DNA of 64,000 nt, from the NCBI RefSeq assembly GCF_018394335.1, contig NZ_CP074572.1, positions 3,348,001 to 3,412,000 on the forward strand, given 5' to 3'. The stretch's first letter is position 1. Each line of letters opens with the position of its first letter. The notes below the pieces were generated by a model. It saw nothing but the letters and a program-made list of their open reading frames with translations, searched no databases and was not told the DNA's origin. Source of the stretch: Shewanella dokdonensis (lineage in GTDB: Bacteria; Pseudomonadota; Gammaproteobacteria; Enterobacterales; Shewanellaceae). This document shows, piece after piece, positions 17,477 to 26,737 of the stretch. The translations under genes and the position numbers were made by a program.

Positions 17477-17992
17477 TTACTTACCTGCTGCCGGTTCTAC
17501 TGGTTTTACTTCACTACTGTTGCTTCTAGCAGGATTTTTCTCTTCGATCAATGGCTTGGTATCTGGGCGCTGTTCTGGCACTTGAGGCACTAATTCCGGA
17601 CTGCGAGCCTCTGGTAGCAAGGTTTGCTCCAGCGGTGTATTGAAGTCTTTGCTCAAGGCGTAGTCACCAGAAACGGAAGCCAGCTTGTCACCATTGAAAT
17701 GAGCTATCAGCTCTTTATGGGTGACACTCGCATCACGACCGCTCTTATAATGATACACGTAATACCAAGTATCATCTGCGAAACTATCACGTAATACCGG
17801 ACGCCCCAGCACATATTCGACTTGCTCTTTGGTCATGTCGATACGCAGCTTTTCTACTTGCTGAGTTTCCATATAGTTGCCCTGCGGAATGTCAGGCTTG
17901 TATACCAGCCAGTCCATCACGCTACAGGCATTTAGTGATAACGCGAGGGCGGCTGCGCCCATCAGGGTAAGACTTTGCTTTTTAATCAACAT
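17477..17992 (-). CDS. bamE: Outer-membrane assembly lipoprotein BamE (SmpA)
   Basis: BamE is a lipoprotein subunit of the BAM complex that inserts beta-barrel proteins in the outer membrane. The 171-residue protein starts at ATG 17992 with a lipoprotein signal (MLIKKQSLTL, lipobox LNAC). The conserved core is KLRIDMTKEQVEYVLGRPVL followed by DTWYYVYHY. The C-terminal extension of about 50 residues is P/E-rich and looks disordered. An earlier in-frame ATG at 18118 would bury the signal peptide and was rejected. Confidence 0.93.
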   Translation of the reverse strand: MLIKKQSLTLMGAAALALSLNACSVMDWLVYKPDIPQGNYMETQQVEKLRIDMTKEQVEYVLGRPVLRDSFADDTWYYVYHYKSGRDASVTHKELIAHFNGDKLASVSGDYALSKDFNTPLEQTLLPEARSPELVPQVPEQRPDTKPLIEEKNPARSNSSEVKPVEPAAGK

Positions 17993-18266
17993 CGGGATTG
18001 CTGCTTCCTGAAAAACTGCGGGCCATAATAACCAAGCCCCATTATTAAATACAAGAATTATCGGCGGTCTGTCAGAGCTTTGACAAAAGGTTTGTGTAAT
18101 AGTTCTGTGGTATCTCATGTTACAGGCCTGTGTGGCAATGTCAGATTTTATCGAGATAGCCGCAGAGGTTGGATCTTTGAGCTTCTGTTATTGCAAAACT
18201 TTTCTCAAGTAACCAGAATGTGAAATAGACTCAATAACGTTATGGATAAAGGACTGGCAATAACCG

Positions 18267-19063
18267 ATGGAAAAGGGAAGTTTAGTTTGTGTAGGCACAG
18301 GATTGCAGCTCGCAGGCCACGTCACTGTTATTGGTAAGAGTTATATCGAAAGTGCCCAAGAGGTTTTTCTTTAATGCCAGATGCATTTGGACAACGCTGG
18401 CTTGAAGGATTGAACGCTAATATTACCGATCTGCAGCAATTTTATGCCCATAAGGGCGAAGTAAAAAACCGTCGCCTTACCTATGAACAAATGACAGAAG
18501 CCATTATGGCTGCGGTTAGAGCGGGTAAACGGGTTGTTGGGGTTTTTTATGGTCACCCCGGGGTATTCGCTTGCGTGCCGCATATGGCAATTGCGCGGGC
18601 GCGCCAAGAAGGGTTTCGGGCGGCAATGGAGCCTGGCATCTCTGCAGAAGATTGTTTATGGGCCGATCTTGGTATTGACCCTGGTAATTATGGCTGCCAA
18701 AGTTTGGAGGCCAGTCAATTGATGTTTTTTGAACATCAACTGGACAATAGCGGCTATGTGTTGTTATGGCAGATTGCCTTGGCCGGGGAACACACGCTGA
18801 CGGGGTTTTCCACCACAGCGGAACGCTTAAGCGTTTTAGTTGATTTGTTACAACAATGGTATCCAGCCGAGCACAAAGTGTGCTTATATGAAGCGAGTAA
18901 TTTGCCTATTGGTGCATGTCGTGCAGAATGGGTTTATTTAAAGGATTTGCCGGAGGCAACACTCCATGCCATTACCACGCTGGTGATCCCTCCAGTGCGG
19001 GAATTGCAGTACAACCTTCGGGTGCTCAATCAATTGGGATTGACGCCGGAGGATTTAGGTTAG
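18267..19063 (+). CDS. sonM: Split-borosin peptide alpha-N-methyltransferase, SonM type (one frame break)
   Basis: Borosin methyltransferases are tetrapyrrole-methylase-fold, SAM-dependent enzymes that methylate backbone amides of a peptide. The start ATG 18267 gives EKGSLVCVGTGLQL, the expected N-terminal SAM-binding strand and glycine loop. The frame stops after 35 codons because T5 (18364-18368) lacks one base; adding a T joins it to the downstream frame for 265 residues. Family motifs include YGHPGVFA, GISAEDCLWADLGIDPG and QIALAGEHTLTGF. The precursor follows 19 bases later, and the locus order bamE-sonM-sonA-aceB is as recalled in Shewanella oneidensis. The break is probably an assembly error. 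Confidence 0.86.
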
Positions 19064-19082
19064 TGACTCATACGGAGGTGTT

Positions 19083-19295
19083 ATGGAAGCGTTACAACTA
19101 TTTTTAACCAGATTGGGTGAAGATGCGGGATTTCGGGCGGCATTTTCGGCAGATCCTGAGACGGTGTTAGCGCAAAGTGGTCTTCAGGAGCAGCATGCTA
19201 TGGCGGTGCAACGTCAAGACGGCGCGGCATTGCAAACCTTAAGTGGTGATGATCATGTGCCTTTTTTGATAGTGAACCATGGTAACAGACTGTAA
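19083..19295 (+). CDS. sonA: Borosin precursor peptide, SonA type
   Basis: A 70-residue protein with a strong ribosome site (GGAGG at 19074-19078). Residues 1-55 form a helical binding domain (LFLTRLGEDAGFRAAFSADP, then VLAQSGL and LQTLSG) like the SonA leader. The C-terminal tail VPFLIVNHGNRL is the probable core, a short hydrophobic run before HGN, as in the known SonA substrate where two backbone amides are methylated. The modified residues here should lie among F61-V64; that is inference. The last 17 bases overlap the next gene. Confidence 0.85.
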   Translation: MEALQLFLTRLGEDAGFRAAFSADPETVLAQSGLQEQHAMAVQRQDGAALQTLSGDDHVPFLIVNHGNRL

Positions 19296-21071
19296 GTTAA
19301 GCCGTTATCTGCTTATTTTTGTTCTGCTATTCAGTGGGGGTAGTCGTTTGTCTGCAGCCCCCATTGATGAAGTAGATGTATCTCTCGGTAAACTCGAAAA
19401 AATTCTCAAAAGTGACGTTGCTGCTGCTCAACAACAGATTGAGGCGATGAAGCCTAGGATCGGCTCCTTTACCTCAGAGCAAGCCGCTAGGTTACTCATT
19501 GCTTCAGCCATCAGTAAGATTTTCAGTGGTGATTTTGAAGAGGCGCTATCGTTTCTGGATAAAGCGGAAACTAAGGCTAATGCCCCGCAATATCTGAGTC
19601 AGATATATAACTACCGCGCTACTTGTCTCATTGGTTTACGTCGTTATCGTGACGCGCTATTGGTTATGGGAAGAAATCTGGCATTACTGGAAAAAGTTGA
19701 TGATCCCGTCGAGAAGCGTGACTCTTACTTTCGGATTGCTAATTTATACGATGAATTAGAAGCATATGACGAGATGGGGTTATATGCTTCTCGTATTCTT
19801 GATCTCGCTGAAAGCGAAAAAGATACCAAGGCGTACTGTTATGGCATCTTTCTATTAGCAATGTCACAGAATGGCCGAGGGATGCTGAAACAGGCTCAGG
19901 AAGGGTTTCAAAATGGCCTGAGTTATTGTTCTGAACACGGTTATTTATTGATGATTGCTATGATCAATAAGGGCCTGGGCGATACGGTCAGGCAATTGGG
20001 CGATAATCGTGCCGCACAACGCTATTTCCGTACGGCGTTAGCACAATATCAACAGTTTCATTTCGCTACCGAAATTGTTAGTACCAGTGCCATGTTAGCG
20101 CAAGTCGATTTAGCGTTAGGTGATGAGCAGGAAGCTGAATCGATGGCGATGGAAGTTCTCTCAGACAGTGGTAGCAGTTATACGGCTGCTAGGCGTGACG
20201 CCTTAAAGGTGATGGCCGAAATCGTGGCTAATCGAGATGATTTTGCTAAAGCCTATGACTACCAGAAACAGTACCTTGATCTCAACGATAAACTTTTTGA
20301 TGAAAGCCGGGTCAAGGCACTAGCCTACCAAGCGGCTCATTTCAGCGCCAACGAGCGTGAACAGGAACTCAAATTGCTCAATAAAGAGCGGGAGCTTTTG
20401 CTTACGCGCGGGATGCTGCGGGAAAAAGAGCATAATAACATGGTAACCTTTGCCAGCCTTCTCAGTGTCGCCATGCTGATGCTCGTTGCCTTCTCTTATT
20501 GGGGGTGGCAACAAAAGCAAAGATTTATGAAGCTTTCCCGGCAAGATCAACTGACCGGAATATATAACCGTGCCACAGTACAGATGATGGGCGACAATCA
20601 ATTTGTGCAGGCCATGCGTCGGGACGCTCATTTTAGTCTAATGTTGTTTGATCTGGATAACTTCAAACAGATTAACGACAACTTTGGCTTTGGATGTGGT
20701 GACTGGGCAATATGCCGGGTCGTCGAATCGGTTCAAGCTGAGCTTTCGCGGAAACATATTTTTGCTCGCATGGGGGCGAAGAATTTGTCATTATCATGCC
20801 TGATGTCGATGCCGCTGCGGCCATAGCGCTGGCAGAGCAGATACGTCAAGTGATTGCCGCTATCTCCAGTAACCGAAGTGGCCATCAGTTTGTGATTACA
20901 GCCAGTTTTGGCGTAAGTAGTCGTACCCCTGTTGATTTGAGTTTGGAACCGCTCATTAACCGGGCGGATAAGGCATTACATCAAGCAAAATTATCTGGGC
21001 GTAACCGCGTCTGTATGACGCCAGAGGTGGTGGCAGATGTCCCAGATGTTGAGGAAGTGTTGAGCAACTGA
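19279..21071 (+). CDS. Exported TPR-diguanylate cyclase overlapping sonA (one frame break)
   Basis: The protein has an N-terminal signal or membrane segment (YLLIFVLLFSG), about 330 residues of tetratricopeptide-like repeats, a membrane segment near 395-415, and a C-terminal GGDEF domain. The frame breaks at G5 (20772-20776). Adding one G restores the catalytic GGEEF exactly at the break and gives about 597 residues. There is no RxxD inhibitory site in the usual position. ATG 19279 lies inside the end of sonA, so translation is probably coupled. It should make cyclic di-GMP; a link to the borosin is suggested only by position. Confidence 0.8.
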
Positions 21072-25415: not shown

Positions 25416-26737
25416 ATGACTGAGGCAAGCCAAATGAATCGTCAGGCGCAAATTGCGGCCCTGAAACAGGATTGGGCTGAAAATCCACGTTGGCAAGGCG
25501 TTCGCAGACCTTATAGCGCAGAAGAAGTAGTGGCATTGAGAGGCTCGGTGATCCCCGAGAACACGCTGGCCAAAATGGGGGCGGCAAAATTGTGGGCGTT
25601 GGTGAATGGTGCTGCCCGCAAGGGATACGTTAACTCGTTAGGGGCGTTAACGGGGGGCAGGCGGTACAACAGGCAAAAGCGGGAATTGAGGCGATTTACC
25701 TTTCTGGCTGGCAGGTTGCAGCCGATGCCAATCTGGCGAGCACCATGTATCCCGATCAGTCGTTATATCCGGCTAATTCGGTGCCCTCTGTGGTCTCTCG
25801 GATCAATAATGCCTTTCGCCGTGCCGATCAAATCCAATGGAGCCAAGGGGTAAATGTCGATGATGACGGCTTTACCGACTATTTTCTGCCAATTATTGCT
25901 GATGCCGAAGCTGGGTTTGGCGGGGTACTGAACGCTTATGAACTGATGAAGTCAATGATTGAGGCGGGGGCTGCCGGGGTTCACTTTGAAGATCAGTTAG
26001 CATCGGTGAAAAAGTGTGGGCATATGGGCGGTAAAGTGCTGGTGCCAACCCAAGAAGCTGTACAAAAACTGGTGGCCGCGAGACTGGCAGCTGACGTTGC
26101 CGGGGTGGATACCTTGGTTATTGCGCGCACCGATGCCAATGCCGCCGATTTGCTGACTTCTGATTGTGATCCCTATGATAGTGATTTCATCACGGGTGAG
26201 CGTACGCCTGAAGGATTTTATCGGGTACGTGCTGGCCTTGACCAAGCCATCTCCCGCGGTCTGGCTTACTGCCCATATGCTGACTTGGTATGGTGTGAAA
26301 CGGCCAAGCCAGATCTGCAAGAGGCTCGCCGTTTTGCTGAAGCTATTCATGCTAAGTTCCCAGGTAAGCTGCTGGCATATAACTGCTCACCATCGTTCAA
26401 CTGGAAGAAAAATCTGGATGATGCCACCATCGCTCGCTTCCAGCAGGAACTGTCGGATATGGGCTACAAATACCAGTTCATCACATTGGCAGGTATCCAT
26501 AACATGTGGTTCAACATGTTCGATCTTGCCTATGAGTATGCTCGCGGTGAAGGGATGAAACATTACGTAGAGAAGGTTCAACAACCGGAATTTGCGGCCG
26601 CGGAGAAAGGCTATACCTTTGTGGCGCATCAACAGGAAGTGGGCACTGGGTACTTCGATAAGGTAACGAATGTCATCCAGGGCGGCATGTCTTCGGTCAC
26701 CGCATTAACTGGCTCGACAGAAGAAGCCCAGTTTTAA
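25416..26737 (+). CDS. aceA: Isocitrate lyase (one frame break)
   Basis: Isocitrate lyase splits isocitrate to succinate and glyoxylate, the first step of the shunt. The catalytic [14 protein letters not shown] is intact. The frame breaks at G6 (25652-25657); adding one G restores the [12 protein letters not shown] region and a 440-residue protein. ATG 25416 has AGGAG upstream. Loss of this gene would disable acetate growth, but the pattern of breaks across the window favours a sequencing error. A terminator follows. Confidence 0.95.

Follow-up and report, generated by a model that had tools for sequence, protein, structure and literature searches.

A split borosin locus of Shewanella dokdonensis in which a neighboring TPR-GGDEF gene may encode the receptor of the core peptide

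The closest described system is the SonM/SonA pair of Shewanella oneidensis MR-1 (PMC8429565; PDB 7LTC, 7LTE and others), in which a methyltransferase and a precursor of about 70 residues are encoded separately. According to PMC8429565, residues L63 and I65 of SonA are methylated, and most genomes of Shewanella retain the small SonM/SonA cluster; the Discussion of that paper states that, as of 2021, no split borosin pathway had been tied to a final natural product. The words GGDEF, cyclase, tetratricopeptide, operon and quorum are absent from the main text of that paper. A GGDEF domain is named among borosin cluster architectures in the legend of Figure 1 of PMC11395268, so the co-location of GGDEF and borosin genes is not new; the legend is silent on a TPR sensor, on any exchange of core and sensor, and on a role as ligand. 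In the literature searched, which left out four key papers, we found neither a ligand-receptor reading of borosins nor a co-mention of borosin and diguanylate, and borosin appeared alongside tetratricopeptide or histidine kinase in none of the matches listed.

The window analyzed here, a stretch of 64,000 nucleotides from Shewanella dokdonensis, carries on its forward strand a sonM homologue (18267..19063), which encodes a borosin alpha-N-methyltransferase, and a sonA homologue (19083..19295), which encodes the precursor. Methyltransferase and precursor are two separate ORFs, as in type IV split borosins; the earlier note had put them 19 bases apart and the precursor at 70 residues, and the ORF coordinates confirm both figures. 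SonM of the PDB matches a 229-aa piece of the enzyme (18374-19063) with an E-value of 1.6e-96, and SonA (7ltc chain B) matches the precursor with an E-value of 5.5e-9, both far above chance; together they support the SonM/SonA identity proposed in that note and show that the precursor is detectably similar to SonA. It is virtually certain that this is a split borosin locus, and its SonM/SonA pair adds a member to that class. Weaker PDB matches to the enzyme (1e-37 to 1e-40) came from fungal borosin enzymes, OphMA among them. Cobalamin and siroheme methylases were rejected as identities for the enzyme; their models matched far below the curated cut-offs and far under the SonM match. The upstream neighbor on the reverse strand (17477..18118) is bamE/omlA (Pfam BamE, E-value = 1.3e-23), and a gene of the same kind is conserved in the loci of relatives.

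With the nearest SonM-type loci, the window enzyme shares about 64% identity. Catalytic residues are retained: Y58, R67, Y71, Y93, F99, E146 and W166 of SonM are all found in the alignment, in which Q178 is replaced by G, and Y58, R67 and Y71 (SonM numbering) are invariant across 16 relatives. A single frame disruption, also claimed earlier, is indeed present as one break in a T-rich stretch near 18360-18374, where a short first piece is followed by the 229 aa in another frame (the two pieces were searched separately, not joined). The enzyme therefore has no unbroken reading frame in the S. dokdonensis genome as assembled, whereas sonM frames are intact in relatives, including the nearest one (L004). 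A gene at 25416-26737, which we take to be isocitrate-lyase-like, is also split over two frames. Because of the breaks at 18360-18374, at 20770-20800 (see below) and in the 25416-26737 gene, together with a genome completeness of 96.6%, the assembly may hold sequencing indels.

The sequence match between precursor and SonA spans residues 2-68 and thus would take in both a borosin-binding-domain leader and a hydrophobic C-terminal core before HGN. The tail reads VPFLIVNHGNRL, its counterpart in SonA being YLVISHGN, and the predicted core region is HVPFLIVNHGNRL (19254..19292, forward strand). When the alignment is anchored on HGN, the methylated L63 and I65 of SonA correspond to L62 and V64 here, so that methylation would be expected most likely at L62 and then at V64; the range F61-V64 named in the earlier note contains both aligned positions. 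That note had also taken the core to be the locus's own sequence. It does differ from the SonA tail, but it belongs to a large set of tail classes that vary in step with the sensor described below, and tails of the PFLIVNHGNKL type occur in three related precursors of the protein database. Pfam LigA, a dioxygenase subunit, was rejected as an identity for the precursor at 21.4 bits, under its cut-off of 25.3. For SonA, neither a signal peptide nor an exporter or protease could be recognized. PF00026 (pepsin-like peptidase) had no match in the same genome, which is uninformative because the control gave no match either. Lee 2024 is said to describe a borosin precursor as a substrate of shewasin A.

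The enzyme and precursor had been placed correctly by the earlier note, which stopped one gene short. A third gene (19279..21071, forward strand) starts within the last codons of sonA, overlapping its end by 17 bases, and encodes a predicted signal peptide, a TPR sensor, a membrane helix and a GGDEF domain. The sensor part (about residues 28-320; 19360..20240) matches Pfam TPR_12 with an E-value of 3.4e-9, and inspection of the sequence predicts that a membrane helix (about residues 388-410; 20440..20508) separates it from the GGDEF domain. From the signal-peptide-like start and the one helix, the sensor part is predicted to be periplasmic. Pfam GGDEF matches the first piece of the gene (E-value = 1.4e-17), and its frame is broken in a G-rich stretch near 20770-20800, at the GGDEF motif, beyond which the letters GGEEF are present in another frame. 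The motif is degenerate in the two nearest relatives, GGAEF in L281 and GGQQF in L284. Because the relatives' motifs are degenerate and the own copy is frame-broken, c-di-GMP output is uncertain in the S. dokdonensis lineage and may have been lost there. NCBIfam models applied to the third gene of relatives returned general GGDEF families only. The AlphaFold2 model of the sensor (19279-20430, with 11 relatives) is a helical solenoid with a mean pLDDT of 86.6. In a Foldseek search against the PDB, LGN-peptide complexes came top (4e-9), and the top 30 include the pheromone receptors Rap (4gyo, E-value = 4.5e-8) and NprR (5dbk, E-value = 2.9e-7). The modelled sensor is thus similar to peptide-binding TPR proteins; since TPR solenoids resemble one another, this likeness is a weak argument and points only to a peptide-binding kind of fold.

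The three-gene order is conserved in nearly all Shewanella SonM loci compared. Among the matches listed, 112 of 129 Shewanella genomes have a SonM match with an E-value of 1e-10 or better, and 150 non-redundant SonM loci with long flanks, the window locus excluded, were collected for comparison of neighborhoods. Two of these end within 2 kb of SonM; in 147 of the remaining 148, a GGDEF gene lies downstream of SonM on the same strand, and the single exception (L061) has two precursors and an apparent remnant of the GGDEF end. The motif is GGEEF in 133 of the 147 proteins, GGDEF in one, altered in five and unrecognized by the script in eight. Two paralogous systems can be distinguished in Shewanella. 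Type A lies beside bamE and its precursors have the core at the very C-terminus, whereas type B has longer precursors with a conserved hydrophobic stretch like CPDVVCIMLPAED followed by long acidic tails. The precursor filter missed five of 142 entries (L010, L013, L017, L116 and L204), and precursors are visible in the first four.

The S. dokdonensis genome carries both types, with a second SonM-type gene at C1:982329-983108. In this second locus (L003, C1:978000-988000, outside the window), SonM is accompanied by a precursor gene that is intact and by a TPR-GGDEF gene whose frame is broken; the DNA between SonM and the intact precursor contains a truncated precursor along with a duplicate of the 3' end of SonM (259 bp at 92.7% and 100 bp at 100% identity). 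The same kind of remnant is found in L095, and we read the remnants at both loci as traces of cassette replacement. A search of the genome with the TPR part (E-value of 0.001) hit only two places, namely the two borosin loci. The sensor alignment scored 266-428 bits in six SonM-bearing Shewanella genomes chosen as controls, and no strong match was found in 17 SonM-less Shewanella genomes (best, 43.9 bits): 15 have weak matches and two have none, one of these being 52% complete.

In relatives, peptide tail and sensor are exchanged as a unit, an indication that the peptide may serve as the sensor's own signal. We infer that the adjacent TPR receptor recognizes the core peptide as its ligand, and would put the probability of this reading at roughly 60%. 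Its chief rival is physical linkage: core and sensor adjoin on the DNA, so a single recombination tract could carry the two along even if they never bind, and two fast-diversifying neighbors might share such tracts while the receptor has a different stimulus and the borosin an unconnected function. Eight loci of the MR-1 clade fall into two tail classes, SY[LI][VI]IS... and F[LV]LVNHGNN, giving 13 pairs within and 15 pairs between classes. SonM is 98.7% identical both within and between classes, and the SonA leader is 96% identical within and 95% between, whereas the tail falls from 85% to 42% and the sensor (columns 1-325 of the third gene) from 88-99% to 29-50%. From column 326 onward, the GGDEF half is again 93-99% identical within and between classes. 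Three pairs compared at the nucleotide level stay at 85-100% identity until roughly codon 55 of sonA; across tail and sensor, identity drops to about 20-65% per 40-base block, and 3' of the sensor it recovers to mostly 80-100%. The swapped block is contiguous, which favors linkage only; that it begins at the leader/core junction in this clade speaks against that rival. The same core-sensor pattern is seen in a wider clade of 17 loci.

Across Shewanella, 188 locus pairs (not independent of one another) were selected with SonM 88% or more and the GGDEF half 70% or more identical. The median tail similarity is 0.83 in the 81 pairs with like sensors and 0.38 in the 105 pairs with differing sensors, while the corresponding values are 0.93 and 0.92 for SonM, 0.87 and 0.81 for the GGDEF half, and 0.92 and 0.86 for the leader. 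Three SonM clusters contain two, five and four sensor groups, and three smaller ones contain one each. The sensors of L088, L095, L084, L119 and L106 join no group at the grouping threshold of 0.58; for L088, L095, L119 and L106, the closest sensor belongs to a locus with a similar core, and this holds less clearly for L084 (closest, L089, at 53%). The closest sensor to that of L106 is in L114, which has the same core type with SonM only 84% identical, whereas in L117, with SonM at 93%, the core is a different one and the sensor is 18% identical. The sensor here follows the core across the SonM background.

In partial Mantel tests on 92 type A loci, core and sensor covary when SonM, the GGDEF half and the leader are taken into account (r = 0.33, p = 0.0005, the smallest p possible with 1999 permutations), and still do so in the 72 loci left when HGN-type tails are removed (r = 0.32). 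In the 35 type B loci the value is 0.37 (p = 0.0005). Between core and GGDEF half, no covariation is left in either type (r = -0.01, p = 0.56 for type A; r = -0.14, p = 0.95 for type B), which speaks against linkage only. Favoring that rival, the leader covaries with the sensor over all 92 type A loci, and more strongly than the core does (r = 0.49, p = 0.0005); in type B the leader-sensor value is 0.32 (p = 0.0005). Leader and core thus both track the sensor over the whole set, and the block starts at the core only in close relatives. The type B loci L058 and L048, however, have differing leaders (54%) and yet the same core and grouped sensors.

The gene arrangement outside Shewanella is also informative on this point. 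With SonM thresholds of 1e-10 for the genus, 1e-20 for the order and 1e-30 for the phylum, matches were found in 95 of 394 genomes of the order sample and 15 of 398 of the phylum sample. Among the best 80 scan matches were 39 named loci outside Shewanella and Parashewanella, of which 35 have a same-strand GGDEF gene downstream and two (L221 and L261) have one upstream; the two without are L224, on a short contig, and L225, with two genes at the partner position, the scanned one being TPR-only. Ten further loci (L294-L303) have a GGDEF gene within 2.6 kb downstream in eight cases, and it is absent in L296 and L303. In 20 more distant loci (L304-L323), the partner beside SonM is a GGDEF gene in nine (eight upstream, one downstream), a TPR-histidine kinase in eight (L305, L306, L307 and L311-L315, some kinases having receiver and Hpt domains) and a TPR-only gene in one, and there is none in two (L310 and L323). 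Five of the nine distant GGDEF proteins were scanned with Pfam (E-value of 1e-5), and TPR was recognized in two and not in three. A precursor-like ORF lies directly 5' of the receptor gene, with a gap of -106 to +32, in 18 of 19 loci (18 of L304-L323 plus L261), none being found for L315. Because the enzyme side and the output domain vary among these distant loci, the stable unit is precursor plus receptor. That the precursor stays directly 5' of the receptor even with SonM on the other side and a different output domain speaks against linkage only, which we consider unlikely, if still the best placed of the alternatives.

Borosin loci without such a receptor partner include L061, L303, L310 and L323. 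L323 (genome G515) encodes a protein of 1177 aa that carries a domain of the tetrapyrrole-methylase type close to the N-terminus and is possibly a fused borosin-like enzyme. Genes that appear by inspection to be pepsin-like (DTGSS-type) lie upstream of SonM in L223 and L303, whose precursors are longer than usual (144-146 aa), with repeated units in L223. Genes resembling GNAT acetyltransferases, also by inspection, lie beside SonM in L223, L230, L240, L250, L255, L259 and part of L294-L302, the genera concerned including Colwellia, Rheinheimera, Neiella and Lysobacter, among others.

If the core is the receptor's ligand, SonM would bind the helical SonA leader and methylate backbone amides of the C-terminal core. 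The peptide would then be released and reach the periplasm by some route, N-methylation perhaps aiding its membrane passage, and the periplasmic TPR solenoid would bind it in its groove and thereby determine how active the cytoplasmic GGDEF domain is with respect to c-di-GMP. A second alternative dispenses with release: intact SonA, its methylated C-terminal tail still attached, would itself interact with the TPR domain. According to PMC12282931, linear peptides and tails are bound by domains of this kind; moreover, type A precursors end with the core, and no maturation protease is seen in the operon. Nevertheless, SonA has no visible signal peptide whereas the sensor appears to be periplasmic, and the long acidic tails that follow the hydrophobic stretch in type B precursors also count against it, so that we regard this alternative as improbable. 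Regulators are often found in biosynthetic operons, and the GGDEF protein might accordingly sense an environmental cue and only regulate production of a borosin that acts as an antibiotic, a metallophore or the like, but an ordinary regulator would not have to vary in step with the core, and this alternative is the least credible of all.

The ligand reading names a specific partner for a split borosin peptide, namely the TPR domain encoded next door. Close relatives that share the same enzyme and differ in their core-plus-sensor pairs constitute a natural experiment, and a ligand-receptor test is feasible in S. oneidensis MR-1. A wider possibility, which we hold tentatively and at somewhat less than even odds, is that gammaproteobacterial split borosins are N-methylated peptide pheromones with cognate periplasmic TPR receptors, swappable GGDEF or histidine kinase outputs, and pherotypes carried as core-plus-sensor cassettes, serving self-recognition between cells. 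If so, they would represent a Gram-negative modified-peptide signalling system that feeds c-di-GMP or two-component signalling.

Of the known systems that invite comparison, the RRNPP receptors of Firmicutes, including Rap and NprR, are cytoplasmic and respond to imported, unmodified peptides. They share with the window sensor a TPR solenoid, which in their case accommodates a short linear peptide whose gene adjoins that of the receptor. The window sensor differs in its signal peptide, its membrane helix, its GGDEF domain (a kinase elsewhere) and the predicted N-methylation of the peptide, and because of the signal-peptide-like N-terminus and membrane helix, both recognized by inspection, the third gene is not assigned to the RRNPP family. 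RcbB of Vibrio vulnificus, as described in the relevant part of PMC12282931, likewise has an N-terminal TPR domain that regulates a GGDEF domain; its partner is another TPR protein, RcbA, and RiPP and borosin-like peptides are unmentioned in that part of the paper. From SonM/SonA itself, the window pair differs in the core VPFLIVNHGNRL, the Q178 to G replacement and the broken enzyme frame, and otherwise has the same architecture. In our view, the three-gene unit with its core-sensor exchange represents a variant among the split borosins, in which a modified peptide is paired with a TPR receptor.
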